A stretch of 60,634 nucleotides of DNA from a virus. Where the stretch lies: the IMG/VR virus record IMGVR_UViG_3300033142_002332, positions 1-60,634 of that record; one strand, written 5' to 3'. Under the pieces are notes generated by a model that saw only the letters and a list, made by a program, of their open reading frames with translations, was not told the DNA's origin and ran no database searches. Below, one piece after another: positions 4,336 through 17,710 of the stretch (the first letter of the stretch is position 1; the number at the start of each line of letters is the position of its first letter). A program made the translations under genes and the position numbers.

Positions 4336-4360
4336 ATTAGAGTAATCTAATCAACCCCTT

Positions 4361-4400
4361 GAAAAGAAACTCTAAGAGCAAAGTCTTAGAGTTTCTTTTC
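4361..4400 (+). terminator. Strong hairpin terminator after capsid gene
   Basis: A perfect 17-bp stem (GAAAAGAAACTCTAAGA / TCTTAGAGTTTCTTTTC) with a 6-base loop (GCAAAG) begins 25 bases after the capsid stop. The arm itself ends in T-rich sequence (TTTCTTTTC), so it can end transcription in the plus direction and, by symmetry, resist read-through the other way. Confidence 0.85.
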
Positions 4401-4473
4401 ATTTACCTCCTCTATTCAATTATCTTCACAATATTATTTATTTTTATTATATATCTTATTAGATAGTTTTCTG

Positions 4474-4479
4474 TATAAT
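4474..4479 (+). promoter_or_regulatory. Candidate -10 element for nrdDG
   Basis: A perfect TATAAT box follows the terminator and lies 40 bases before the chosen nrdD start. No good -35 box is visible. If it is used, transcription starts near 4486, which excludes the upstream ATG at 4478. Confidence 0.45.
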
Positions 4480-4519
4480 GAATAACAGATTGCTTAATCC
4501 AAAACAGAAAGAAAATAAA

Positions 4520-7024
4520 ATGAATAAAGAAGAGCTATTATCTTTAAAAAAAGAAGGTAAGACTAACCTAGAGTGTTCAAAGATTTTTAATGTCTGTAAA
4601 TCAACTATCTCCAATCATGTAATTTCACTAATCAATGAAGGAAGGCTAAAAAAAACAGAGATAGTTAAAAAAAAAGCTTGGAATGAAGGAACAACTAAGA
4701 ACAGGGTTAAAGTTAAGTGTTCTTATTGCAATAAAGAAAAAATAATTCATGGTTGTAGTTATAAAAGAAACGTAACAGGATTGTTTTATTGCAATCAAAC
4801 ATGCAGACAAGCTAATACTTACCAGGTTAGGACTTGTCAGTATTGTAATGATGAATATAAGGCTATTAGGGGATCAACACGTAAGTATTGTTCTCATAAA
4901 TGTTCTATGGAAAAAAAAGAACAAACGTTTAAATATGTTAAAAAAAGAGACGGAAGCATTCAAGAGTTTGATATAAATAAGATTATAAGGGCCATAGGAA
5001 GGTCTGGGAAAGAGACAGGTGAATTTGATGATGTAATTACTTCTCGTTTAGCGATTAGAGTTGTTAATCTTCTTGAGATGAATGTGTATAATTCTACGCC
5101 TGAGATAGAACAAATTCAAGATATAGTTGAAGATGTTTTATTAACCTCTCCTTTTAAAAAGACAGCTAAGTCTTATATTCTTTATCGTGAACAGCACGCT
5201 AGGTTAAGGGATTTTGCTAAGAAAGCTAATTTAGACCTGGTTGATTCATATCTTAATAACCTTGACTGGAAGGTTAAAGAGAACAGTAACATGGGTTATT
5301 CTTTACAAGGACTTAATCAGTATATTTCTAGTGAGATTAGTAAGAGCTATTGGCTAAATAAAATTTACACTAGCCAGATCCGTAATGCTCATTTGTCTGG
5401 AGATTTTCATATTCATGATTTAAATCTTCTTAGCGTTTATTGTGTTGGTTGGGATTTACAGAATCTTCTTAAAATAGGGTTTAAAGGTGTAGCTGGTAAG
5501 ATAGAAAGTAAGCCTGCTAAACACTTTCGTAGTGCTTTAGGTCAGATTGTTAATTTCTTTTATACCCTTCAAGGAGAAGCTGCAGGCGCACAAGCATTTT
5601 CAAATTTTGATACGTTATTAGCTCCTTTTATTCGATATGATGGGCTTAATGAAGAAGAAGTAGCCCAGGCAATGCAGGAGTTCATTTTTAACATCAATAT
5701 TCCTACACGAGTTGGGTTCCAAACACCTTTTACAAATATTACTCTTGATTTGCAGCCACCGTCAACATTGAAAAGCCAATCTGTTATTATTGGTGGGAAA
5801 TTACAAAAAGAAACTTATGCAGAGTTTCAAGACGAAATGCATATGTTTAACAAAACCTTTCTTAATGTAATGCAAAAAGGAGATGGAAAAGGAAGGGTAT
5901 TTACTTTCCCAATTCCAACTTATAATATTGGGTCTGATTTTGATTGGGACAGTCCTAATCTTGAAACTTTATGGGAAGTTACTGCAAAGTACGGAACACC
6001 TTATTTTGCAAATTTCATTAATTCTGATATGTCAGTTGATGATGCTCGATCCATGTGCTGTAGGTTGAGATTAGACCTACGTCATTTAGATAGAAGAGGA
6101 GGCGGCTTATTTGGAGCAAATCCTTTAACAGGATCTATAGGTGTCGTAACTATTAATATGGCAAGATTAGGGCATATTTCTAAAGACGAAAAAGAATTTA
6201 TTGAAAAACTTGATCATCTTTTGGATCTTGCAAAAGATAGCTTAGAGATTAAGAGAAGGTTGCTTGAAAGCTTTACAGATAAAAAGCTTTATCCTTATAC
6301 AAAGTATTATTTAAAAGAGATAAAGAAGCATTATAATCAGTATTGGTATAATCATTTTTCAACTATTGGGTTGATTGGAATGAATGAAGCTTGCCTTAAT
6401 TTATTTGGTAAAGACATAGGAACAAAAGAAGGCAATAAGTTTGCTGCGAAGATACTTGATCATATGAGGGATAAGCTTCTTTCTTTTCAAGAAGAAACAG
6501 GTAATATGTATAATCTTGAAGCAACTCCTGCAGAAGGAACTTCTTATCGTCTTGCTAAACTAGATAAAAAGTATTATCCAGAGATTATTTCAGCTCAACC
6601 TAAAGAAGGTTCTGGTATTAAAAGGCCTTTTTATTCTAATTCAACTCAACTTCCTGTTAATTATAGTCATGATATTTTTGATGTTCTTGATAAGCAAGAT
6701 AATTTACAAAAAAAATACACGGGAGGCACAGTACTGCATATCTTTTTGGGAGAGTCTCTTGCGCAACCTGAAAATTTAAAGAAGTTCATAAAAAAAGTGT
6801 GCGAAAACTATAATCTTCCTTATTTTACGATTACACCCACCTTTAGTATTTGTTCTGATCATGGTTATTTGAAAGGAGAGCAGCCGTTTTGTCCTGAGTG
6901 CAAAAGCAAAACAGAAATTTATTCTAGAGTTGTTGGTTATTTACGACCTGTTGATCAATGGAACGAAGGGAAGCAAGCAGAATTTCCTTTACGATCTCAT
7001 TATCAAATTGAGCATAAATCATGA
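4520..7024 (+). CDS. nrdD: Anaerobic ribonucleoside-triphosphate reductase with extra HTH/zinc N-terminus
   Basis: Class III reductase that makes deoxynucleotides without oxygen using a glycyl radical. Visible features in order: an N-terminal helix-turn-helix (~residues 1-45); two Cys-rich motifs (CSYC...CNQTC and CQYC...CSHKC, ~65-130); an ATP-cone (~135-230, YVKKRDGSIQEFDINKI); catalytic-core cysteines in SVYCVGWDL and SMCCRLRLD; and a C-terminal zinc site (ICSDHGYL...FCPEC) before the glycyl-radical loop RVVGYLRPV. The HTH/zinc segment is not part of ordinary NrdD and resembles DNA-binding parts of phage HNH/homing endonucleases. Start 4520 is preferred over in-frame 4478 because that codon overlaps the -10 box. 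It overlaps nrdG by four bases. Confidence 0.93.
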   Translation: MNKEELLSLKKEGKTNLECSKIFNVCKSTISNHVISLINEGRLKKTEIVKKKAWNEGTTKNRVKVKCSYCNKEKIIHGCSYKRNVTGLFYCNQTCRQANTYQVRTCQYCNDEYKAIRGSTRKYCSHKCSMEKKEQTFKYVKKRDGSIQEFDINKIIRAIGRSGKETGEFDDVITSRLAIRVVNLLEMNVYNSTPEIEQIQDIVEDVLLTSPFKKTAKSYILYREQHARLRDFAKKANLDLVDSYLNNLDWKVKENSNMGYSLQGLNQYISSEISKSYWLNKIYTSQIRNAHLSGDFHIHDLNLLSVYCVGWDLQNLLKIGFKGVAGKIESKPAKHFRSALGQIVNFFYTLQGEAAGAQAFSNFDTLLAPFIRYDGLNEEEVAQAMQEFIFNINIPTRVGFQTPFTNITLDLQPPSTLKSQSVIIGGKLQKETYAEFQDEMHMFNKTFLNVMQKGDGKGRVFTFPIPTYNIGSDFDWDSPNLETLWEVTAKYGTPYFANFINSDMSVDDARSMCCRLRLDLRHLDRRGGGLFGANPLTGSIGVVTINMARLGHISKDEKEFIEKLDHLLDLAKDSLEIKRRLLESFTDKKLYPYTKYYLKEIKKHYNQYWYNHFSTIGLIGMNEACLNLFGKDIGTKEGNKFAAKILDHMRDKLLSFQEETGNMYNLEATPAEGTSYRLAKLDKKYYPEIISAQPKEGSGIKRPFYSNSTQLPVNYSHDIFDVLDKQDNLQKKYTGGTVLHIFLGESLAQPENLKKFIKKVCENYNLPYFTITPTFSICSDHGYLKGEQPFCPECKSKTEIYSRVVGYLRPVDQWNEGKQAEFPLRSHYQIEHKS

Positions 7025-7614
7025 AAATAGGAGGATATCAGTCGCTTACATTGAGCGACTTTCCTGGGAATGTTGCAGCTATTGTTTTCACTCAAGGTTG
7101 CAACTTTCGTTGTCCTTTTTGTCATAATTTTGACCTTCTTGGAATTAAACCTTCTAAGAAAACATTTAATGATCAAGATATTTTTGATAACTTAAAGAGC
7201 AGGTTATTGTTATTGGATGGAGTTGTTATTACTGGAGGAGAGCCCACTTTACAAAAAGACCTATTTAGTTTTATTAGTAAAATTAAGAACATAGGTCTTA
7301 AAATTAAGCTTGATACTAACGGAAGTAACCCTAAGATAATAGAGAATCTATTAAATAACGAAAAATTAGACTATATCGCTATGGATATAAAAGCACCTTT
7401 TAGTAAGTATAATCAAGTAGCAGGCGTTGACGTTTGTATAAACAAAATTAAGAGAAGCATTGATTTGATACTTGCAAGTAAAATTTCTTATGAGTTTAGA
7501 ACTACCTTTGCAAAAGATATTTTGTCAGAAAAAGATATCTGTGAAATAAAAAAAAGCTTACCTAACGAAGCAAACTATAAGATACAAGTCTGTAAAAAAA
7601 TAAACAATTTATAA
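7021..7614 (+). CDS. nrdG: Anaerobic ribonucleotide reductase activating protein (radical SAM)
   Basis: 197 residues. The N-terminus reads GGYQSLTLSDFPGNVAAIVF followed by the radical-SAM iron-sulfur motif CNFRCPFC (Cys27, Cys31, Cys34) and the SAM-binding GGEPTLQ. The enzyme uses SAM and a 4Fe-4S cluster to make the glycyl radical on NrdD. Its ATGA start overlaps the nrdD stop, so the two are translationally coupled. All key residues are present and the length fits the pyruvate-formate-lyase-activase-like NrdG group. Confidence 0.92.
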   Translation: MKIGGYQSLTLSDFPGNVAAIVFTQGCNFRCPFCHNFDLLGIKPSKKTFNDQDIFDNLKSRLLLLDGVVITGGEPTLQKDLFSFISKIKNIGLKIKLDTNGSNPKIIENLLNNEKLDYIAMDIKAPFSKYNQVAGVDVCINKIKRSIDLILASKISYEFRTTFAKDILSEKDICEIKKSLPNEANYKIQVCKKINNL

Positions 7615-7726
7615 TTATATTTAAATATTCTATTTTTTATGTTGAATATGTTGTATTTTTATGTTTTATTTATAACTGGTTTTGATAGTTAGCTAAATAA
7701 CAGTTTTTAATATAAAGGGGGTTTTT

Positions 7727-9091
7727 ATGGACAAAGAGAAAAAATATATTGTCTTAGTTCCAGGTCATAGTATAGAAAGTCAGAGTTTTACAATGTGGAC
7801 GAATGAATCAGAGTGGTCTTTTTGTTTTCGTGCTTGTACGTATATGAAAAATTATTTTGATATGAATTTTGAAAATGTTGAAAGTAAGGTAGTTGATAGG
7901 CATTCTACAGGGGAAGGGTATGCGAGCGAAATGGAGAAAGTGGGGAAAGAGATAAAAGGTTGGGAAAAACCTATTGATTTAATTTTTGAGCATCATGTTA
8001 ATTCCGCTAGCGGAATTGCTTTTGGTTGTGAGGGGCTTATAAATTTAGATGATAAAGTTAGTTCTTTATTTGTTGATGAGCTTACTGACGATTTTAGTAC
8101 GCAATTTTTAATTCGTGAAAGAAGAACTAAAAAACTTCCAGGTGGGGAGATACTAACTGATGGCGTTCTTTCTGTGAAACCAGGAGAGAGGGGTAGTAGC
8201 GGTTTAAAAACATATAAGGGTTGTAATTCAAAGGTATCTTTTATTTGGGAACCTTGTTTTGGGAATGAAAGAACCAAAGAATCTATTAATATTTTAAAGA
8301 ACGAAAATACGTATTTTCCTTGGATTTCTCAATATTTAGGGAATAAAGTGGGTGGTGTTTTAAAGCCTAATATAACTTTAATTGATGCGCTTAGGACTGA
8401 AAGTATTGAAATTACTACGACTCAACGAGTAGCTTCTTTAGAGCCTGACCCAATAAAGAATACTCTTTTAAGAGAGTTAATTACGGTTTATAAAAAGGCT
8501 TCTATAAAATTTAAGGCTTTGAAGGGAATTACGTTAGCCCAATGGTTATTAGAAAGTGGTAGGGCAACGAGCAAGTTAGCTGTTAATCATAATAATTTTG
8601 GAGGTTTGAAATATAGGAAAGAAATAGAAGATATTAGTGGAGAAAAAAAACGATGGTCAATTGAATATACAGGGAGTGATAATAATAAAGATAATTATTT
8701 TGCATTTAAAAGTATTGAGGAGTTTGTTGTTGGGTATTGGCTTTTTATTGGTAGGCAAAACTATAAAGGTTGGGAGCGTTACGGTAATGATCCTGTCGGA
8801 TATATGGAACATCTTTGTAAGTGTGGATATTCTGAAACACCAGACTATTTGACTCGTGTTTTGAAGCTTTTACCCGAGGCGGAAAGGTTATTATTGAGTG
8901 TTAAAACAGAGCCTTACTATAAGAAAGGGAAAGAAGAAGTTATTAAAGAAGGGGGTGAAAAAAAAGTAGGTCAAAGTTCAATTAGTTCTGGAAAATGTTC
9001 ACAAATTAAGTTACAATTTGATTATGAAGGTTCGAGAATTAATATGCTCCTTAACGGAGAGGTTTGTATATCATCAAAAAAATGTTGTTAA
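7727..9091 (+). CDS. Bifunctional endolysin: amidase_3-like plus GH73-like glucosaminidase
   Basis: Residues 1-~195 look like an N-acetylmuramoyl-L-alanine amidase: YIVLVPGHS at the start, a middle FEHHVNSASG with candidate zinc histidines, and a late acidic IWEPCFGN. Residues ~245-395 carry a glucosaminidase pattern (TLAQWLLESGRATSKLAVNHNNFGGLK, read with its catalytic Glu, then YFAFKSIEEFVVGYW). The protein would cut both the peptide linkage and the glycan backbone of peptidoglycan. There is no signal peptide, so release would depend on a holin. The C-terminal ~60 residues after position 395 are unassigned and may bind the cell wall. AAAGGGGG gives a strong ribosome site. A second lytic enzyme lies at 60131. 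Confidence 0.8.
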   Translation: MDKEKKYIVLVPGHSIESQSFTMWTNESEWSFCFRACTYMKNYFDMNFENVESKVVDRHSTGEGYASEMEKVGKEIKGWEKPIDLIFEHHVNSASGIAFGCEGLINLDDKVSSLFVDELTDDFSTQFLIRERRTKKLPGGEILTDGVLSVKPGERGSSGLKTYKGCNSKVSFIWEPCFGNERTKESINILKNENTYFPWISQYLGNKVGGVLKPNITLIDALRTESIEITTTQRVASLEPDPIKNTLLRELITVYKKASIKFKALKGITLAQWLLESGRATSKLAVNHNNFGGLKYRKEIEDISGEKKRWSIEYTGSDNNKDNYFAFKSIEEFVVGYWLFIGRQNYKGWERYGNDPVGYMEHLCKCGYSETPDYLTRVLKLLPEAERLLLSVKTEPYYKKGKEEVIKEGGEKKVGQSSISSGKCSQIKLQFDYEGSRINMLLNGEVCISSKKCC

Positions 9092-9114
9092 TAATTAATT
9101 AGAAGGGTAATAAA

Positions 9115-10392
9115 ATGAGTTTTATTTATAAAGCTAGTGTATTTTTTAGTGTTTTTTTTGTTTCTTTACGATTGAGCGGTTCTCCTGAAAATTCTTTTTC
9201 AAGATGTTTTAGAACCTTTGACCCTGGTTTGAGTGATATTAGGGGTTTTGATTTTAGCCCTCGTGGCGATTCAATTGCATTTGTTGATGGTAGAGGGAGC
9301 TTTTTATCTCGAGATAATGTCTTTTCTAGTCTTGATAATAGGAATTTTAATCGAGTTTCTGAATTTATTTTTAAGCATGGGGCTCATGATATAAAGTTTT
9401 CTCCTGATGGAAAATTCATACTAGTTTGTAATGATAGAGGATGGCTTGGTTTATTAGATAATTCAAGTTTTGAAGTTAAAAATTTTAAAGCTTGGAATGT
9501 GGACTTTAATTTAATTGATTTCAGCCCCGATGGATTTCACTTTATAGCTGGGGGGGTTGGAAGGGATGAACATTTAATATATTTATTTAATTTAGAAGGA
9601 GAGGTGATAAGGATTTTTAAGGGACATTCTGGCAAGATAACAAGGCTCAAATATAGCCCAGATGGAAAGTCTTTTATTTCTGGTAGTACAACAGGAACTA
9701 TAAATATTTGGACTGTTGACGGTGAATTATTAAAGACTGTTAATTATGTTTCGTCAGCAGTATCCTTGTTAGATTTTCCAGCAAAAATTGTTGGTTTAGA
9801 TTTTTCGTCATCAGGTAAATTTTTTATGTCTTGTGATGCTTGGGGAGAAGTCAAGCAGTGGACTTCTAGGGGTGTTTTAAGTCGCGTGTTTCAATCTGAT
9901 ATTGAGGGGGTTGATATTGCGGAATTTAATCCTAATGGACAAGACCTTCTTATGGGAGGGTCTGGAAAGGTTGAATGGTGGAGTTCAGAGGGTCATTTAA
10001 AAGAAACCTTTAATAGGTTTGCAGGCCTAGTAAAAGACTTGAATTATAGACCTGACGGAGATGGTTTTTTGGCTTTATTTGAGAGGGGCGGCGTTAAGTT
10101 TTGGTTTTTAAGACCAGCATTTCAAACAAACCCTAGTGCTATAGCTAATATTTTTCCTACTGTAGGGAAAGCCCCCTTTACAGTATTTTTAGATGGTCTT
10201 GGTTCTCATGATCTTAATGATCGTGGACACATTTTGGATCATGTTTGGAAGATCTCAGATGGTAGGGTTTTAGAGGGTGGATATCGAAAACTTAAGTTTA
10301 AAAGATCTGGTGTTTATACGGTTACTTTGACTGTAACAAATAGAAGAGGTAACAGTGAGACAAGTTTTGAAAAGTATATTTTTGTTGACTAG
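9115..10392 (+). CDS. Predicted secreted seven-bladed WD40 propeller with C-terminal PKD domain
   Basis: The N-terminus (YKASVFFSVFFVSLRLSGS) is a likely signal peptide. Seven propeller units follow, each with an F/Y-S-P-D-G-like turn: FDFSPRGDS, IKFSPDGKF, IDFSPDGFH, LKYSPDGKS, LDFSSSGKF, AEFNPNGQD and LNYRPDGDG, several ending in W (NIWTVDG, KQWTSRG, EWWSSEG). Residues ~335-425 form a PKD-like domain (PTVGKAPFTVFLDGLGSHD ... GVYTVTLTVTNRRGN). Both modules mediate protein or surface binding, so an exported or envelope role is inferred; no enzyme site is seen. It follows the endolysin by 24 bases with AGAAGGG as ribosome site and precedes two exported nuclease-like proteins. Confidence 0.8.
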   Translation: MSFIYKASVFFSVFFVSLRLSGSPENSFSRCFRTFDPGLSDIRGFDFSPRGDSIAFVDGRGSFLSRDNVFSSLDNRNFNRVSEFIFKHGAHDIKFSPDGKFILVCNDRGWLGLLDNSSFEVKNFKAWNVDFNLIDFSPDGFHFIAGGVGRDEHLIYLFNLEGEVIRIFKGHSGKITRLKYSPDGKSFISGSTTGTINIWTVDGELLKTVNYVSSAVSLLDFPAKIVGLDFSSSGKFFMSCDAWGEVKQWTSRGVLSRVFQSDIEGVDIAEFNPNGQDLLMGGSGKVEWWSSEGHLKETFNRFAGLVKDLNYRPDGDGFLALFERGGVKFWFLRPAFQTNPSAIANIFPTVGKAPFTVFLDGLGSHDLNDRGHILDHVWKISDGRVLEGGYRKLKFKRSGVYTVTLTVTNRRGNSETSFEKYIFVD

Positions 10393-10399
10393 TGAAAAA

Positions 10400-10570
10400 A
10401 TGTTTAATAATAAAAAATTACTTAAAGAAAAATTATTAAATAAATACCAAGGTATTTATTTATTGAAATGTAGTATAAAAAAGTTTAATAATAAAAAGAG
10501 TTTTTATAAAATTAGTAATGATAGTGCCAGGGTAACTATCATTAAATTGAATAAGGAAAAGTTGTTATGA
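10400..10570 (+). CDS. Possible 56-residue basic protein
   Basis: A short lysine/asparagine-rich frame that starts 8 bases after the upstream stop and ends in ATGA overlapping the next start, which favours translational coupling. Against it, there is no clear ribosome site and the same DNA holds two perfect inverted repeats (10437-10462 and 10517-10543), so it may be regulatory sequence that is open by chance. No family recognised. Confidence 0.35.
   Translation: MFNNKKLLKEKLLNKYQGIYLLKCSIKKFNNKKSFYKISNDSARVTIIKLNKEKLL
10437..10462. repeat. Perfect 12-bp inverted repeat
   Basis: TAAATAAATACC and GGTATTTATTTA face each other across two bases, giving a 26-bp palindrome between the WD40 and nuclease-like genes. 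It could be an operator or an RNA hairpin. Confidence 0.6.
10517..10543 (+). repeat. Inverted repeat upstream of nuclease-like pair
   Basis: AATGATAGT and ACTATCATT form a 9-bp stem with a 9-base loop, about 24 bases before the start at 10567. Possible RNA hairpin controlling that operon. Confidence 0.5.
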
Positions 10571-11151
10571 TATATATTGTTATACAAAGATTAGTTATTT
10601 TATGTTTATTAGCTCAAGGGTTGGTTGTTACGGGCAGTGCTTCAGAAAAACATTTAAGGTTTTTAAGTCGTAATAAGCAAAAGTGCATTCATAGTGCCAA
10701 AGCTTATAGGTGCGTTGAATACGTTAGTAATAAAAGCGGAAATACGGTTAAATTTAATATACATGGCATAGGGGATAGGCTAACCGTTCATTTAACAGGA
10801 ATAGAAACCCCAAAGATAAAACCTAATCGTAAACAATCTAAAAAGTCTGAAAAATGTGAGATATCTAGGGCTAGAGATTTAAGCTATCTTGTTTCAGATT
10901 TGCTTAATAATGCTAGAGAGATTCACCTTATTGGACCTAAAAGGAGAAAGGGTAAAGCTTATATTTCTGATATTGTTTTTGATAGAAAAAGTCTAGTAGC
11001 TTTACTATTGATGCATGAATATGGTTTTATATCTAATAATAAAGATATAAATTGGTGTACTAAGCCTGAAAAAATTACTTATGGAAATAGTGTTTTTTTT
11101 GAATCTAAAAAGGAAAAACGTAGTAAAAAAGAATTAAAAAGCAACACATAA
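10567..11151 (+). CDS. Predicted exported thermonuclease-like protein, catalytically degenerate
   Basis: A hydrophobic N-terminus (VIQRLVILCLLAQGLVVTGSAS) suggests export. The fold region aligns with the intact paralogue at 11172, but the staphylococcal-nuclease active residues are changed: DGDT is SGNT (57-60), RLFGIDTPE is HLTGIETPK (75-83), and the second arginine (FRIV) is replaced near residue 133. Cysteines shared with the paralogue (KC...YRCVEYV and NWC) suggest the same disulfides. It is therefore probably a binding-only pseudonuclease, perhaps an inhibitor or partner of its neighbour; that role is inference. AAGGA precedes the start, and the genes are 20 bases apart. Confidence 0.75.
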   Translation: MIYIVIQRLVILCLLAQGLVVTGSASEKHLRFLSRNKQKCIHSAKAYRCVEYVSNKSGNTVKFNIHGIGDRLTVHLTGIETPKIKPNRKQSKKSEKCEISRARDLSYLVSDLLNNAREIHLIGPKRRKGKAYISDIVFDRKSLVALLLMHEYGFISNNKDINWCTKPEKITYGNSVFFESKKEKRSKKELKSNT

Positions 11152-11171
11152 ATTAAAATGGGTAAGGTCAC

Positions 11172-11741
11172 ATGAACTATAGCAGCTTAAAAAGAAAATT
11201 AGTTAATATATTATGTATATTGTTTTTAGTTATGTTAGTTACAGGTATATCTAAAAAAAGCGGTTACTTAAAGAGCAATAATGGTTCATGTGAACATGAT
11301 ATTGTTGGATTTAGATGCGTTGAATATGTTAAAAATTATGACGGTGACACGATCACTTTTAATATAAAAGGAGTCCATCCCATTATAGGTAAGAGAATAT
11401 CAGTCCGTCTATTTGGTATTGATACACCTGAGATGCGTCCTAAACGTAAACAATCTAAAGAGTCTAAGGCTTGTGAAAAAGCTAAGGCAAGGGAAGTAAA
11501 GGATTATGTTGCTGGCATTCTTAAGAATGCTGATAGAATTGATATTGTTGATCCTCAAAGAGGCAAATATTTTAGAATTGTGGGGTCTATAGTAGTTGAC
11601 GGAAAAGATTTAACTTTTTTATTATTGAATAAAGGGTACGGATATTCTTATTTAGGTGGTGCTAAAGAGAAGATAGACTGGTGTTTATATTCAAAAAAGA
11701 ATATAAACAAAAAGGTCTCTTTAGTTTTTTATAACAGTTAG
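11172..11741 (+). CDS. Exported thermonuclease (SNase family)
   Basis: Residues 1-~26 form a signal peptide or membrane anchor (ILCILFLVMLVTG). The nuclease core has the family's key positions: Asp57/Asp59 in DGDT, Arg79, Asp84 and Glu87 in RLFGIDTPE, and Arg125 in YFRIV. This family cuts DNA and RNA in a calcium-dependent way. Conserved cysteines (SC, FRCVEYV, DWC) point to action outside the cytoplasm. Possible roles are degrading competing DNA, scavenging host DNA on lysis, or blocking superinfecting DNA in the periplasm; the sequence does not choose among these. It lies last in the rightward endolysin-propeller-nuclease series. Confidence 0.85.
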   Translation: MNYSSLKRKLVNILCILFLVMLVTGISKKSGYLKSNNGSCEHDIVGFRCVEYVKNYDGDTITFNIKGVHPIIGKRISVRLFGIDTPEMRPKRKQSKESKACEKAKAREVKDYVAGILKNADRIDIVDPQRGKYFRIVGSIVVDGKDLTFLLLNKGYGYSYLGGAKEKIDWCLYSKKNINKKVSLVFYNS

Positions 11742-11761
11742 TTATTATTTTCATTTAAGTG

Positions 11762-12103
11762 TTAACATCCTGTGATATTAATTGTTGAATCTACGCCTAG
11801 TTTTTCAGTGCAAGTATCTATAATTCTATATGTATTATGAGTTTTCTTATATTCCATATATGTATCTTTCAACTCGGAATTTGTTCGATCTTCATAAAGA
11901 TCTAAAAAGAAAATATTTATGCCTATTAAACATAAAGAAAACATCATAGTGCTAGCTGCAACATTCTCTGTTACGTGTTTAGTTAAAAACATTGAACCTA
12001 TAAATGCCACTAAACTAAAAATAATCGATATTCCTAGCTTAAATCTTGTTTTGCCTACTTCTTCTATTCTTTTGATAAATTGCTTTTGTAATTCTATTCT
12101 CAT
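11762..12103 (-). CDS. Small two-helix membrane protein
   Basis: About 113 residues: a charged N-terminal helix (IELQKQFIKRIEEVGKTRF), two hydrophobic segments (LGISIIFSLVAFIGSMFL and ASTMMFSLCLIGINIFFL) and a polar C-terminus with two cysteines. The start at 12103 is preceded by GGAAC; the same frame runs further upstream through three 39-bp repeats that are read here as leader copies. It is the second gene of a leftward pair controlled by the promoter repeats at 12.6-12.8 kb. Function unknown; membrane role (holin-like, exclusion or signalling) is only a guess. Confidence 0.6.
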   Translation of the reverse strand: MRIELQKQFIKRIEEVGKTRFKLGISIIFSLVAFIGSMFLTKHVTENVAASTMMFSLCLIGINIFFLDLYEDRTNSELKDTYMEYKKTHNTYRIIDTCTEKLGVDSTINITGC

Positions 12104-12133
12104 GTTAGTTCCTTCGTTGTTTTGTTTTTGATT

Positions 12134-12250
12134 GTTTGTTGTTTTGTTATTCATTTTGTTTTTTCTTTCTTTGTTTGTTGTTTTGTTATTCATTTTGTTT
12201 TTTCTTTCTTTGTTTGTTGTTTTGTTATTCATTTTGTTTTTTCTTTCTTT
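12134..12250 (-). repeat. Three perfect 39-bp tandem leader repeats
   Basis: Three identical 39-bp units at 12134, 12173 and 12212. On the minus strand each contains an A-rich ribosome-site-like AAAGAAAG, an ATG and codons for NNKTTNK. A fourth near-identical copy (one base different) is at 12567-12605, upstream of the other leftward gene. They look like duplicated translation start regions rather than coding sequence. Confidence 0.8.
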
Positions 12251-12278
12251 GTTATTTGTTATAATCCTAATGCAACAG

Positions 12279-12554
12279 CTAAAAGTTCTGGAAAAAATAA
12301 AATAAAAGTCCTGGACAAAGTAGAATACAAGATAAAGCTAGAGCAATTGTTATATGTGTAACTATTTCTTCTTTTTCTTTATCTTTTCTTTTTTGTTCTT
12401 TCTCTAATTGTATTTTTATATTGACTTTTTCTTCAATGAGTTTGTCTATTTTGCTACCCAAAGAATTATAACCAAAATAAAATGATGAATTTGTTTCAAA
12501 TAGTTTTTCTATTTCTTTATTAATTTCAATTATTCTTTCTTGTTCTTTTCTCAT
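12279..12554 (-). CDS. Coiled-coil protein with C-terminal membrane anchor
   Basis: About 91 residues. A charged helical region (KEQERIIEINKEIEKLF and KVNIKIQLEKEQKRKDKEKE) is followed by a C-terminal hydrophobic segment (ITIALALSCILLCPGLLFYFF), so the bulk probably faces the cytoplasm. ATG 12554 is preceded by GGAAC; in-frame ATGs further upstream belong to the repeated leader. First gene after the two leftward promoter copies. Function unknown. Confidence 0.55.
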   Translation of the reverse strand: MRKEQERIIEINKEIEKLFETNSSFYFGYNSLGSKIDKLIEEKVNIKIQLEKEQKRKDKEKEEIVTHITIALALSCILLCPGLLFYFFQNF

Positions 12555-12613
12555 GTTAGTTCCTTTGTTTGTTGTTTTGTTATTCATTTTGTTTTTCCTT
12601 TCTTTGTTTTATT

Positions 12614-12683
12614 GTTTTCGTTATTCATATTTTTAATATACATTATTAAAAAAGTTTGTCAAGTAAAATTTTAAACTTTTTTT
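12614..12683 (-). promoter_or_regulatory. Promoter/operator/leader repeat, copy A (leftward)
   Basis: On the minus strand: -35 TTGACA (12662-12657), 16-base spacer, -10 TATATT (12640-12635) and an ATG at 12628, seven bases downstream. AAAAAAGTTT and AAACTTTTTT flank the -35 as an inverted repeat. Drives the small membrane-protein pair. Confidence 0.8.
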
Positions 12684-12712
12684 ATTTTTTTTAAAATTAA
12701 TTTTAAAAGATT

Positions 12713-12786
12713 GTTTGTTTTCGTTATTCATATTTCTAATATACATTATTAAAAAAGTTTGTCAAGTAAAATTTTAAACTTTTTTT
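12713..12786 (-). promoter_or_regulatory. Promoter/operator/leader repeat, copy B (leftward)
   Basis: Near-identical to copy A: TTGACA at 12765-12760, TATATT at 12743-12738, ATG at 12731, with the same inverted repeat. Its leader frame runs into copy A and no separate gene lies between them, so it is a tandem promoter or the relic of a lost gene. Confidence 0.75.
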
Positions 12787-12821
12787 ATATTGTTTGTGAT
12801 TATTTTTTTATTAGTGTATTA

Positions 12822-12853
12822 TTTGGTTATTTGTTTTTAGATAAATAACCAAA
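12822..12853 (+). promoter_or_regulatory. Hairpin abutting the ribosome site of the 12864 gene
   Basis: TTTGGTTATTT and AAATAACCAAA form an 11-bp stem with a 10-base loop. The right arm runs into AAAGGAGGG, the ribosome site for ATG 12864, so folding could limit translation. Confidence 0.5.
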
Positions 12854-12863
12854 GGAGGGCGAG

Positions 12864-13175
12864 ATGAAGAAAAGGGATATTATAATAAAGGATAGAAAAG
12901 ACGGAGAGTTAATAATGAGAATAATAGAATTAGCTGAAGAAAAGTGGCATGGTGTATTTTACGATAGACCAACAGACCATATAGGATATTTAAAGTTATT
13001 CAGACCACCTGACGCTTTAGATTTTAGTAATAGGATGAGCAAATTGAATTTTGTGAGTAAAGGAAGAAAATTAACTTATAATAATGGCGAGCTGTTTGTT
13101 TATTTAGATGGTCCTTTTCTTGGGATAGTTAAAGAGAAAGCTTTAAATAGCCTATCTTGTATGTCTAAAATATAG
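12864..13175 (+). CDS. Hypothetical 103-residue protein
   Basis: Has one of the best ribosome sites in the region (AAAGGAGGGCGAG). Sequence is mixed polar with LKLFRPPDALDFSNRMSKLNF and a beta-like YNNGELFVYLDGPFLGIV near the end. No signal peptide or membrane segment. It lies between the two pairs of oppositely oriented promoter repeats, so it may encode their regulator, but no DNA-binding motif is evident. Function unknown. Confidence 0.55.
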   Translation: MKKRDIIIKDRKDGELIMRIIELAEEKWHGVFYDRPTDHIGYLKLFRPPDALDFSNRMSKLNFVSKGRKLTYNNGELFVYLDGPFLGIVKEKALNSLSCMSKI

Positions 13176-13275
13176 AGGCAGATTATTTGTGTGCCTAGCA
13201 TTTATTTTAGTCTAGGTAGCTTAGCTATTTACATTTAAAAATCTTTTCATAAATTGCATCTGAATATTTTTAAAT

Positions 13276-13363
13276 AAAAAAAGTTTAAAATTTTACTTGA
13301 CAAACTTTTTTAATAATGTATATTAGAAATATGAATAACGAAAACAAACAAAAGGAAAAATAA
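13276..13363 (+). promoter_or_regulatory. Promoter/operator/leader repeat, copy C (drives parA)
   Basis: -35 TTGACA 13297-13302, 16-base spacer, -10 TATATT 13319-13324. Dyad arms AAAAAAGTTT (13277-13286) and AAACTTTTTT (13302-13311) flank the -35. The likely transcript start coincides with an ATG at 13331. Confidence 0.85.
13331..13363 (+). CDS. Ten-residue leader peptide upstream of parA
   Basis: ATG followed by nine codons ([10 protein letters not shown]) and TAA, four bases before the parA start. The ATG would be at or next to the 5' end of the mRNA and has no ribosome site of its own, while the leader's AAAAGGAAAA serves parA. It may be translated as a leaderless start or may simply be a conserved 5' region. 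Confidence 0.35.
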
Positions 13364-13367
13364 AAAA

Positions 13368-14318
13368 ATGAATAGCAAAATAATTTCTGTGTTTAACCAT
13401 AAAGGAGGTGTTGGGAAAACAACAACGGTTTTCAATTTAGGGAAAATAATGGCTAATTTAGGGAAAAGGGTTTTATTGGTTGATTCTGATCCCCAATGTA
13501 ATTTGACAAATTTAACAATAGGCTTAGATAACTTAGAGAAGTTTTATAGTAGTAAAAAAGAAACAAACATTTTTAATTGTCTTGCTACTGTTTTTGAGAT
13601 ACCAGGTTTTTTTTCTAATAATTCAAATGAAAAATATATCAAAGAGACAAAAACCAAAAACATGTATCTTTTAGCTGGCAATGTTAGATTTTCTGAATTA
13701 GATGTTATGTTATCAACTGCATTAACTAGTAATAAAACTTTGCCTATTTTAAAAAAATTTATTGGTTCTATAAATAAACTTATAATAGATATTGTTGATA
13801 AAAATAAAATTGACATAGTATTGATTGATATGAGCCCTAGTATATCTTCAACAAATGCTTGTATCTTAATGGGCTCTGATTACTTCATAATGCCTGTATC
13901 TCCAGATATTTTTTGTTGTCAGGCTATGGCAGCGTTATCTGTCATATTTTCACAATGGCATAAGGTTTTTGAGCAGTTTAGGGGATCAAGCGTTAAAAGT
14001 CTTTTACAAAAGAATCCTCCAAAACTAATAGGGATGATCTCTCAGAGTTATATTTTTAATAGTAGCTCTAAAAAATGGTTTGATAGGATAATAAAGGTAA
14101 TGAATGACGTGTTAATTCCTGAACTTAAAAAAAATAATATGGTTATAGACGAAAGTATTTTTAGTAAAGTTGCAACAGAAAATGGTTCTTATAATCTAAT
14201 TAACATCCCATACATTAAGTCACTAGAAACAGAAAGATTTATGACAAAAAACAATAAAGAGTTGTCTGAAAGTATTTTTACAAGACTAGAAGAAATAATA
14301 AGTAAATTAACAGCATAG
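13368..14318 (+). CDS. parA: ParA/Soj-family partition ATPase
   Basis: 316 residues with the deviant Walker A motif [15 protein letters not shown] near the start, Walker A' [13 protein letters not shown], and Walker [14 protein letters not shown]. These ATPases bind DNA and position plasmids or other cargo. No ParB is recognised next to it, although small basic proteins nearby (for example 17313) could be centromere binders. In a phage this suggests a plasmid-like (phage-plasmid) maintenance state or positioning of phage components; neither is proven. It is controlled by promoter repeat copy C. Confidence 0.85.
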
Positions 14319-14360
14319 GCCTTTTATTATTTTGTTAACTGATAGCGTAAGTAGCAAAAA

Positions 14361-14449
14361 AATAAAAAAAGTTTAAAATTTTACTTGACAAACTTTTTTA
14401 ATAATGTATATTAGAAATATGAATAACGAAACAAACAAAAGGAAAAATA
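14361..14449 (+). promoter_or_regulatory. Promoter/operator/leader repeat, copy D (drives cheB-like gene)
   Basis: -35 TTGACA 14385-14390, 16-base spacer, -10 TATATT 14407-14412, ATG 14419 seven bases on, and the same inverted repeat as the other copies. A one-base loss compared with copy C puts the leader ATG in frame with the gene downstream. Confidence 0.85.
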
Positions 14450-14454
14450 AAAAA

Positions 14455-15024
14455 ATGAATAAAATTATTGCCATAGGGTCATCAACTGGTGGAATAGCTG
14501 CTCTTACAGACTTATTAAAAAACCTTCCTACAGAAATACCTCCAGTTGTTATAGTACAGCACATACCTAAAGTGTTTTCTTTAAGTTTTGCAAACAGTCT
14601 TAATAAAATGTGTCCTTTTAAAGTAAAAGAAGCAGAAGACGGAGACGTTTTAAAAAAGAACACTGTTTATATAGCTCCAGGAGGAAAACAAACAAGAATT
14701 AGAAAAAGAGGATCCGACTTTGTTATTCTTGTAGTTGATGAAGAGCCTCATAATCATCATCGACCTAGCGTTGATATATTGTTTGACTCTGTAGCAAGGT
14801 ACATAAAAAATAGAGCAATTGGAGTTGTTTTAACAGGAATGGGAAAAGATGGAGCCAAAGGCCTTCTTAATATGAAAAAAGAAGGAGCCCTAACTATTGC
14901 TCAGGACGAAAAAACATCAGTGGTTTTTGGAATGCCAAAATCAGCTATAGCGATAGGTGGTGTCTCAAAGGTCTTACCTTTACAGCGTATTCCAAAACAG
15001 CTGATGGATTGGGTTAATTTATAA
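14455..15024 (+). CDS. cheB: Free-standing CheB-type methylesterase/deamidase domain
   Basis: 189 residues that cover only the catalytic half of CheB, which removes methyl groups from chemoreceptor glutamates. The triad is intact: Ser10 in IGSSTGG, His36 in VIVQHIP and Asp132 in TGMGKDGA; the HHRPSVDILFDSVA and QDEKTSVVFGMPKSAI segments also match the family. The phosphorylated receiver domain that normally holds CheB in check is missing, so the enzyme would be always active. An in-frame ATG at 14419 belongs to the repeat leader; AAAGGAAAA supports 14455. It probably alters host chemotaxis or adaptation (inference). Confidence 0.9.
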   Translation: MNKIIAIGSSTGGIAALTDLLKNLPTEIPPVVIVQHIPKVFSLSFANSLNKMCPFKVKEAEDGDVLKKNTVYIAPGGKQTRIRKRGSDFVILVVDEEPHNHHRPSVDILFDSVARYIKNRAIGVVLTGMGKDGAKGLLNMKKEGALTIAQDEKTSVVFGMPKSAIAIGGVSKVLPLQRIPKQLMDWVNL

Positions 15025-15042
15025 AAATGGAAAGTATAAACA

Positions 15043-15582
15043 ATGAAAACAGCTACTGAAGTAAAATTTACATCGTATGGTATGCCTATTGTTGTATATG
15101 AAATAATTAAAACTATTGATGGATTGGATATGACTATTTTTGATAATAGAAAGCATAAGCAGCTCGAATTAAAAAGGAGAATAAGAACACAGATAAGAGA
15201 AACAAGAGAAGAAGCCTTAAAAGAATACGCTAGCTGTTTTGAATTTGAAAGCTCAATAGAGGATCTTAACAAAGCCGAAATAAAAAACAAAATTGAAGAG
15301 TTTTTATCTTGTTATGATAGAATTTCAAAAGAAAATCTAAGAGAAATGGTTTTGTTCTTTGATGAACATCGAAAAGAGATAAAAGATAAAGTATTACGCT
15401 TTTTATTATTAGACGATCTTAGTGGTTTTTTAAATTACTTTAGAGAAAAAAACGAATTATATCTTGCTTCAAAAAAAGCTAAAGATCTGCATAATTACAT
15501 GTATAAGCGTTATAAAGGAGAGTATTATTGGTATATTAATAATAACCGTGAAGGTAATGATCTTAATTTAAGAGACCCTTAA
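15043..15582 (+). CDS. Hypothetical helical protein after cheB-like gene
   Basis: 179 residues, strongly charged and helical (RRIRTQIRETREEALKEY, DEHRKEIKDKVLRFLLLDD), with no recognised motif, signal or membrane segment. It starts 18 bases after the CheB-like gene with GGAAAG upstream, so it shares that transcript and may act in the same process. Function unknown. Confidence 0.6.
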   Translation: MKTATEVKFTSYGMPIVVYEIIKTIDGLDMTIFDNRKHKQLELKRRIRTQIRETREEALKEYASCFEFESSIEDLNKAEIKNKIEEFLSCYDRISKENLREMVLFFDEHRKEIKDKVLRFLLLDDLSGFLNYFREKNELYLASKKAKDLHNYMYKRYKGEYYWYINNNREGNDLNLRDP

Positions 15583-15654
15583 AGGTACAAAATGAAAACA
15601 ATAACAAATAATAAAAGAGAGAAAAAATGGTTAATAAAATAAAGGATAAATTTT

Positions 15655-16035
15655 ATGTCTAATCTATCGTTAGAATATTGCAATGTTAAAAATAACATAA
15701 AAAAAGCATTAAAAGAAACAACTGGATATTACCCTTTTGAAAAAGATGAAGAACTATCAATTGAACATATGCTAAAAAACGGTGTTTATATCTATAAGGT
15801 ATTAAAAAAATTAGGTTTTAATGCAGTAAGGGCACAGTCAGAGTCTAGCTATTTAACAGAGTATCTAGAATATGGAGAGCCACCAAACATGAAAACACTT
15901 GTTGATAATAGGTATTTAATATTATATGTCATAGCTGGATATCAAGTATTTGACATACACCCTTTATTTTTGCATATAGATGGGGCATCTCCAGAGGAAG
16001 TAATTGAGTTTTTATTAAATCATGTGAGTGAGTAA
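15655..16035 (+). CDS. Hypothetical protein
   Basis: 126 residues, soluble, with a C-terminal part (YLILYVIAGYQVFDIHPLF, SPEEVIEFLLNHV) that looks like a compact mixed fold. AAAGGA precedes the start. The 72 bases before it contain a short A-rich frame (ATG 15591) resembling the leader segments of the promoter repeats. Function unknown. Confidence 0.55.
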   Translation: MSNLSLEYCNVKNNIKKALKETTGYYPFEKDEELSIEHMLKNGVYIYKVLKKLGFNAVRAQSESSYLTEYLEYGEPPNMKTLVDNRYLILYVIAGYQVFDIHPLFLHIDGASPEEVIEFLLNHVSE

Positions 16036-16097
16036 TTGTACGCATATGAATATTATAATAAAAAAATAATAAAGATATGAAAATAAAGGAGAAAACA

Positions 16098-16376
16098 ATG
16101 ATTAAAGAAACGGTGTATTTAAATAGTGGCACAGATAAGCCTTTATCTAAAGAAGATATTTCCAATATAGCTAAAGATGTAGCTGTAAAATTAAATAAAG
16201 TTAAAGAAAAAATTTTAAAGTTTAAAGGATTACAAGAGATGTCGCCAGAAGCGACCAGATGTTTGAATGATTTTAAAGGTAATTTGTTGAATCTTTCAGA
16301 AAAATCTATAGAGTTAAGTGAAGAATTAAAGAAAGATATCTGTAAAAAAGGTATAATAAATAAAAAATACGCATAA
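16098..16376 (+). CDS. Hypothetical helical protein
   Basis: 92 residues, mostly helical (VAVKLNKVKEKILKF, LLNLSEKSIELSEELKKD). The start at 16098 is chosen over 16077 because AAAGGAG is correctly spaced from it. Function unknown; member of the small-gene operon after the CheB-like gene. Confidence 0.55.
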   Translation: MIKETVYLNSGTDKPLSKEDISNIAKDVAVKLNKVKEKILKFKGLQEMSPEATRCLNDFKGNLLNLSEKSIELSEELKKDICKKGIINKKYA

Positions 16377-16388
16377 TGGAGAACTATA

Positions 16389-16883
16389 ATTAATAATAAA
16401 AGGGGTATAGATAAAATAAAAAAAGAGTATCTAAAAGTATTAAGCTTTGAGACAATAGACTCATTTAATAAAGAAATCAGTTGTATAGAATATTTATGTC
16501 AACAAACGGAGTATATAGCGTATGAAAATAAAGAGGCTTTTAAATATTTAAATATACCTAAAGAATTTAAAAAGTTGGCTATTGATTTATTTATAGAATT
16601 AAATGAAGTAATTAGTGTCTATAGAGGTTTACGTAAAGAAGACATCATAAGATATTGTTTACGGCTTGATAGATTACCTGTGATAAATAGAATAATTCTG
16701 TCGTTTAAGGAAAAAGCTATAAAAGAAATATTAAACGCTAAAAACAAAGAAGACATTTTATCTTTAATGTTGGATTTTTTAAAAATGTCTTTAGAGTGTG
16801 GTTCGCTTTTTCTTGAATTGTTAAGTGATGTGTATTATGAAAATATAGAAGATATGGTTTTAAATTCACCTAAAGCTTCTTGA
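16389..16883 (+). CDS. Hypothetical helical protein with probable AUU start
   Basis: The frame is open from the previous stop (16374-16376) to 16883 but contains no ATG, GTG or TTG until TTG 16575, which has no ribosome site. GGAG at 16378-16381 sits seven bases before ATT 16389, so an AUU start, as known for infC, gives a 164-residue protein. Its sequence is uniformly helical (YLKVLSFETIDSFNKEI, NEVISVYRGLRKEDIIRYCL), including the part before 16575. Function unknown. A sequencing error or mutated start codon is the alternative. Confidence 0.5.
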   Translation: MNNKRGIDKIKKEYLKVLSFETIDSFNKEISCIEYLCQQTEYIAYENKEAFKYLNIPKEFKKLAIDLFIELNEVISVYRGLRKEDIIRYCLRLDRLPVINRIILSFKEKAIKEILNAKNKEDILSLMLDFLKMSLECGSLFLELLSDVYYENIEDMVLNSPKAS

Positions 16884-16908
16884 TTGTATATAGAAATAAG
16901 GAATTATT

Positions 16909-17274
16909 ATGCCCGAAAAAAATAACGTTATAAGTGTAGTTCATAATTTAAAAGCTAAAGGTTATGAAGATGTTATTGGAGACTGGGTAATGATGAGCAA
17001 AAATAAACCAAAAGAGCTATTAAGTGAAAAAGTAACTAACATATATGATAAAAACGAAACAACTCTTAACGATAGCAGTAAAGAAAAAATGATTAATTTT
17101 GATTTTAATATTAAAAGTGATAAAGATTATTCTTTAGTAAAAGATAAAGTAAATAAAGCTTTAGTTAGCTCTATAAATAAAGTCAGCAGTGCTTACGGAA
17201 GCGGAATTAATTTAAAAGTAACTATTTATGTAAAAAAGGAGTGCAATGAGTTTATAAAAAAACTAAAAAATTAA
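16909..17274 (+). CDS. Hypothetical protein
   Basis: 121 residues with AAGGA upstream. The C-terminal half (INFDFNIKSDKDYSLVK, INLKVTIYVKKECNEFIKK) suggests an alpha-beta fold. No motif recognised. Confidence 0.5.
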   Translation: MPEKNNVISVVHNLKAKGYEDVIGDWVMMSKNKPKELLSEKVTNIYDKNETTLNDSSKEKMINFDFNIKSDKDYSLVKDKVNKALVSSINKVSSAYGSGINLKVTIYVKKECNEFIKKLKN

Positions 17275-17312
17275 TAATTAAAACAACAACAATAGAAGAA
17301 AGGAAAATATAA

Positions 17313-17558
17313 ATGAATAAATCAAAAAATGTCGAAAACTTAAAAGCATACTCCTTTAAATGTAACAATGAGGTAAAGGATTTATATAAAAAATGGAGTC
17401 AATGTTATTCGCAGCATACTATTAGCAGCTTTTTTAACAGTGCTCTAATATCTTTTTTAAAAGAGAATAAAGATAAAGCCTTACCTATGTTTAATGATAA
17501 TGATAAGAAAAAAGTCTTAAGGATAATTCAAGACTTTAAGGAATTAGATCTTAAGTAA
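17313..17558 (+). CDS. Small hypothetical protein, possible DNA-binding
   Basis: 81 residues, basic, with AGAAAGGAAAA upstream. The stretch SFKCNNEVKDLYKKWSQ followed by HTISSFFNSALISFLKEN resembles ribbon-helix-helix proteins in length and strand-helix-helix order, so it is a weak candidate partner for ParA or a repressor. A strong terminator follows 20 bases later. Confidence 0.45.
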   Translation: MNKSKNVENLKAYSFKCNNEVKDLYKKWSQCYSQHTISSFFNSALISFLKENKDKALPMFNDNDKKKVLRIIQDFKELDLK

Positions 17559-17578
17559 CAAATTAGTTATTTAGCATG

Positions 17579-17622
17579 AAAAGAAACTAGCCTGTAAAAA
17601 CTAGGTTAGTTTCTTTTTTTTT
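17579..17622 (+). terminator. Intrinsic terminator
   Basis: A 15-bp stem (AAAAGAAACTAGCCT / AGGTTAGTTTCTTTT, one G-T pair) with a 9-base loop is followed directly by more T residues. It ends the small-gene operon. Confidence 0.85.
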
Positions 17623-17639
17623 ATAATCAGTAAGTTTCG

Positions 17640-17668
17640 TTTAATAGTCTAGGCATATATCTTATAAT
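17640..17668 (+). promoter_or_regulatory. Candidate sigma70-type promoter
   Basis: TTTAAT (17640-17645), a 17-base spacer and a perfect TATAAT (17663-17668), just after a terminator and before the virion accessory gene series. The -35 is weak. Confidence 0.5.
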
Positions 17669-17710
17669 ATTTATGTAAAAGAAAAACAAATGATAATAAA
17701 AGGAAAACCT

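Follow-up and report, generated by a model that had tools for sequence, protein, structure and literature searches.

In E. coli, the receiver of the chemotaxis methylesterase CheB represses the catalytic domain until it is phosphorylated, and the linker between receiver and catalytic domain binds the NWETF tail of the receptor. Phages, for their part, inhibit or exploit the motility of bacteria. When the catalytic domain of E. coli CheB is present alone, as in the laboratory construct CheBc (residues 147-349), it is active in vivo with a high catalytic rate and without phosphorylation feedback; in its behavior it approximates phosphorylated CheB, and the cells that carry it show a broad, bimodal kinase activity (PMC5809149). 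A CheB without a response-regulator domain has also been described in C. jejuni (PMC3879368).

Here, we analyze a 60.6-kb IMG/VR virus record (hereafter the window, meaning the whole of this stretch), which is probably a piece of a larger genome and which encodes, on the plus strand at 14455-15024, a CheB methylesterase catalytic domain of 189 aa that lacks a receiver. This protein resembles the CheB of Salmonella and E. coli (PF01339; 1CHD, 1A2O) in its fold, its Ser-His-Asp triad, its equivalent of Met283 and an identity of about 50%; it differs from them in having neither the N-terminal receiver nor the linker, in being encoded by a phage and in lying behind a phage promoter cassette. Its truncation is the same as that of CheBc; however, CheBc is an artificial construct of demonstrated activity, whereas the phage version is natural and its activity predicted. 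The C. jejuni protein, likened here by its reported architecture, is both natural and receiver-less, but it belongs to the bacterium's own chemotaxis system. The CheB domain and its receiver-less form in C. jejuni are already known, and what appears to be new is the phage context, with the gene placed behind a phage promoter cassette.

The catalytic domain and the missing receiver

The earlier note on this DNA had described the gene as a CheB catalytic domain with a triad at residues 10, 36 and 132 and without its regulatory receiver, and both parts of this description agree with the analyses made here. The PF01339 profile spans the whole product of ORF 14455-15024 (profile positions 1-174 of 174, E = 5.4e-66) with a score of 222 bits against a curated cut-off of 24. 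The nearest solved structures are those of Salmonella CheB (1CHD, E = 1e-55; 1A2O), which is 50% identical to the phage protein, Pectobacterium CheB (6YMZ) and Thermotoga CheB (3SFT). The phmmer alignment to 1A2O is gapless, residue 2 of the query falling on residue 156, and it places Ser10, His36 and Asp132 on Ser164, His190 and Asp286, and Met129 on Met283; the equivalents of the triad and of Met283 are invariant across the 43 CheB relatives aligned. The comparison of a predicted structure with CheB, which the earlier note had proposed, gave a concordant result: the AlphaFold2 model has a pLDDT of 91.4 and matches 1CHD in Foldseek with a TM score of 0.94 and 1.2 Å. An unrelated esterase family, named in that note as one outcome that would overturn its reading, is excluded by the Pfam match, the PDB alignments and the fold match to 1CHD. 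The identification of the product as a CheB methylesterase catalytic domain with an intact active site is thus well supported. In the alignment with 43 CheB domains, the phage protein retains all 29 of the near-invariant columns, defined as those with at least 95% conservation among cellular CheB domains, and for this reason the gene looks functional rather than decaying. The best cellular identities (51-55%) are spread over four phyla, and in a phylogenetic tree the protein groups with canonical CheB-like sequences, apart from the WspF-type sequence of record OQ572403, although branch support around it is weak (about 60).

No match to Response_reg was found at E <= 1 across the entire window, and there is no receiver-like reading frame within the 136 bases that separate the stop codon of the preceding ParA gene (14318) from the cheB start. 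In contrast, at least 135 residues precede the catalytic domain in all of the approximately 43 nearest cellular relatives retrieved, and in the six of these that were tested Response_reg was always found ahead of it. The phage protein begins at the first strand of the domain (MNKIIAIGSSTGG), and therefore the break coincides with the domain border; the linker between receiver and catalytic domain is missing together with the receiver. The protein has no N-terminal receiver with a phosphorylatable Asp, as a canonical two-domain CheB does, and it matches the NCBIfam CheB subfamily, which describes the full protein, in the C-terminal part alone and below the cut-offs. Nor does the gene lie in a chemotaxis cluster with cheA, cheR or cheW; its neighbors encode ParA and phage proteins without known function. 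An alternative in-frame ATG at 14404 would give a longer reading frame, but it overlaps the -10 element. The likely start is ATG 14455, since an AGGA is located upstream at about 14440, since ATG 14404 lies inside the promoter, and since a further leader ATG at 14419 is in frame with CheB but, through a one-base difference, out of frame in the copy of the leader that precedes ParA.

Promoter cassettes, phage context and distribution

The claim that cheB has a dedicated promoter was only half right. A strong sigma70-type site (TTGACA-16-TATATT, 14385-14412, with TTGACA at 14385-14390 and TATATT at 14407-14412) does precede the gene, and this 28-bp promoter was absent from all shuffled windows; however, it belongs to one of four identical copies and is not reserved for cheB. 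A 49-bp promoter core (AAAAAAAGTTTAAAATTTTACTTGACAAACTTTTTTAATAATGTATATT) occurs four times without change inside 2.1 kb, facing both directions, and the leader on its 3' side is nearly identical among the four copies. Two of these cassettes are on the plus strand, before cheB (14356-14455) and before the ParA gene (13272-13367); the other two are on the minus strand, one belonging to ORF 12279-12587 (12592-12691) and the second (12711-12788) in tandem with it as the result of a 103-bp duplication. The four cassettes mark a candidate set of co-regulated phage genes, and as the promoter core is common to CheB, ParA and the minus-strand genes, CheB is probably co-expressed with them. In the core, the -35 element is surrounded by a 10-bp inverted repeat, a feature also shown by about 2% of shuffled cores, and an operator common to the four cassettes is accordingly possible but unproven. 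No copy of the cassette was found among the other IMG/VR contigs.

The gene immediately upstream (13368-14318, plus strand), which has its own cassette copy, encodes a stand-alone ParA-family ATPase (Pfam AAA_31, 2.4e-33; phrog_164) with homologues in P22-like Salmonella phages, Pf1 and a Helicobacter-associated phage; no partner ParB was recognized among the annotated genes of the window. Downstream, a 179-aa protein without known function (15043-15582, plus strand), for which no relatives were found, begins 18 nt after cheB and probably shares its transcript. On a larger scale, cheB is flanked on both sides by genes for a SPO1-like major head protein, tail sheath and baseplate, and it has both the GC3 (0.21) and the codon preference of the phage. 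The placement of the gene in a phage genome, as first proposed, thus holds: it is resident there, in a large tailed phage and with a phage cassette at its 5' end, and contamination or misassembly is unlikely, because phage genes lie on both sides, because the codon usage is phage-like and because the 3' side of cheB runs into ORF 15043 without any repeat. The major head protein (phrog_752) matches SPO1-like phages at 33% and three IMG/VR contigs, none of which has a CheB, at 46%. Two of the three, read at length, are syntenic with the window over the head and tail genes, and in both of them the interval of about 13 kb between the head protein gene and the homologue of ORF 17690 holds unrelated cargo. 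In the window this cargo interval, in which cheB lies, extends from 4336 to 17689.

Genes of this kind appear to be rare among phages. A search of INPHARED (50,697 records) returned four CheB matches, the weakest of them MT837354 with 30% identity. A gene-by-gene reading, which covered MT835847 and OQ572403, revealed a bacterial flagellar and chemotaxis operon (fli/flh/che) in the former and a wsp operon with prfB and lysS in the latter, so that both are bacterial DNA, likely misfiled or contaminated; OR851186, a Salmonella record of 2.5 kb, was set aside as too short to be counted and is probably bacterial DNA as well. In IMG/VR (2.9 million contigs), a gapped motif and two scans at the protein level detected no other CheB, although the records closest to the window may have escaped them. 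With a looser motif there were 44 matching contigs, but they contain no CheB; three weak matches in frames of about 2800 aa are due to chance. Both motifs recover nearly all of the cellular CheB loci examined, so the IMG/VR scans are sensitive. To judge from these searches, neither INPHARED nor IMG/VR appears to hold a second phage with a receiver-less cheB, with the same proviso for the closest records. The uncharacterized phage/prophage family PHROG 22245 has a CheB-like profile that matches the phage protein with E = 1e-55; the protein aligns, however, with only positions 156-338 of its 349, for which reason the members of the family appear to be full two-domain CheB proteins. CheB-like proteins have thus apparently been filed as viral before, in the two-domain form. 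In the papers searched, there was no mention of a chemotaxis adaptation enzyme in a phage, nor of a CheB that is phage-borne, lacks the receiver and lies behind a phage promoter cassette, in accord with the earlier remark that no established phage function of this kind was known.

Possible roles during infection

The role that we infer for the phage CheB is that of an unregulated, constitutively active methylesterase/deamidase which acts on the receptors of the host and flattens chemotaxis in infection; we give this reading a probability of roughly 0.58. The host's sigma70-type polymerase would read the cassette at the 5' end of cheB, and the product, free of inhibition by a receiver and in no need of phosphate from CheA, would demethylate and deamidate the host chemoreceptors, its presumed targets, whatever the state of the phosphorylation feedback. 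In a pathway of the E. coli type, lower receptor methylation would reduce the activity of CheA, and E. coli-like cells would then acquire a smooth swimming bias and adapt poorly. Infected cells might in this way ignore gradients, cease to steer and spread out as phage replication proceeds. Of the possible mechanisms, constitutive receptor demethylation has the strongest backing, given that E. coli CheBc, with the same truncation, is active without phosphorylation feedback (PMC5809149). The behavioral effect would presumably be dose-dependent, as CheBc cells tuned to normal activity are still able to adapt (PMC5809149), and since the linker is missing, the docking of the phage enzyme on the receptors may be weak. 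As the INPHARED and IMG/VR searches revealed no second phage with the gene, comparison gives no sign that phages make conserved use of it. A natural CheBc in a phage would predict a simple form of takeover, in which the receptors are kept demethylated whatever the cell senses, and the protein could offer a ready-made, phosphorylation-independent enzyme for probing receptor adaptation in laboratory strains of E. coli. Considerably more tentative, and in our judgment somewhat short of an even chance, is the broader proposal that the catalytic half of CheB behind a phage cassette is an unregulated effector by which infection reprograms host navigation, and that no phage effector working through receptor demethylation was known before it.

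Enzymes of the CheB family serve nonflagellar pathways too, and the phage protein could conceivably act on a host chemosensory pathway that controls type IV pili or c-di-GMP, as WspF-like proteins do, and bring about superinfection exclusion or a biofilm switch by altering the surface structures that serve other phages as receptors. The wsp operon of OQ572403 indeed includes a CheB-like gene, and chi phage, whose infection depends on how the chemotaxis system controls the motor (PMC10399903), shows that phages can have a stake in such a pathway. We nonetheless consider such a role rather unlikely, given that the tree, albeit with weak support, places the phage protein among canonical CheB-like sequences, away from the WspF type, and that no pilus or c-di-GMP genes were seen near cheB. 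It is quite unlikely, too, that the gene is merely a captured fragment of a host gene, carried in a hypervariable interval, perhaps transiently, as cargo without any phage-specific benefit. The differing content of the cargo interval in the syntenic relatives would fit such an origin, as would the failure of the INPHARED and IMG/VR scans to find the gene in another phage; but the near-invariant columns are all intact, the codon usage is phage-like, and the cut is exact at the domain border with a phage promoter cassette in front.

A methylesterase/deamidase that has been retargeted to a nonreceptor protein of the host or the phage is highly improbable. The receptor-docking linker is missing, and the co-directional 15043-15582 protein could serve as an adaptor or as the target; on the other hand, the conserved core is unchanged, and an identity of about 50% to ordinary CheB proteins in four phyla does not suggest an outlying subfamily. 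An assembly artefact, or host DNA joined to a phage contig, is scarcely credible: a repeated cassette could in principle produce a misjoin, and the CheB matches in public phage records appear to stem from similar contamination, but the flanks on both sides are phage genes, the codon usage is that of the phage and the 3' junction is unrepeated. Constitutive demethylation of host receptors is the reading that we prefer.

Other features of the cargo interval

The window encodes no tRNAs. Within the cargo interval, the segment 4478-7614 encodes the anaerobic ribonucleotide reductase NrdD and, after it, a protein resembling radical SAM activases; this pair suggests an anaerobic or facultative host. 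Between 9115 and 11741, there are a protein with WD40 and PKD domains and a pair of related SNase-like proteins, each of the three with an apparent signal sequence, which is unusual cargo for a phage. Finally, 39-bp tandem repeats at 12134-12250, located where the minus-strand ORF 11762-12232 begins and encoding repeats of the peptide MNNKTTNKERKNK, are apparently a start-site sequence that has been multiplied.
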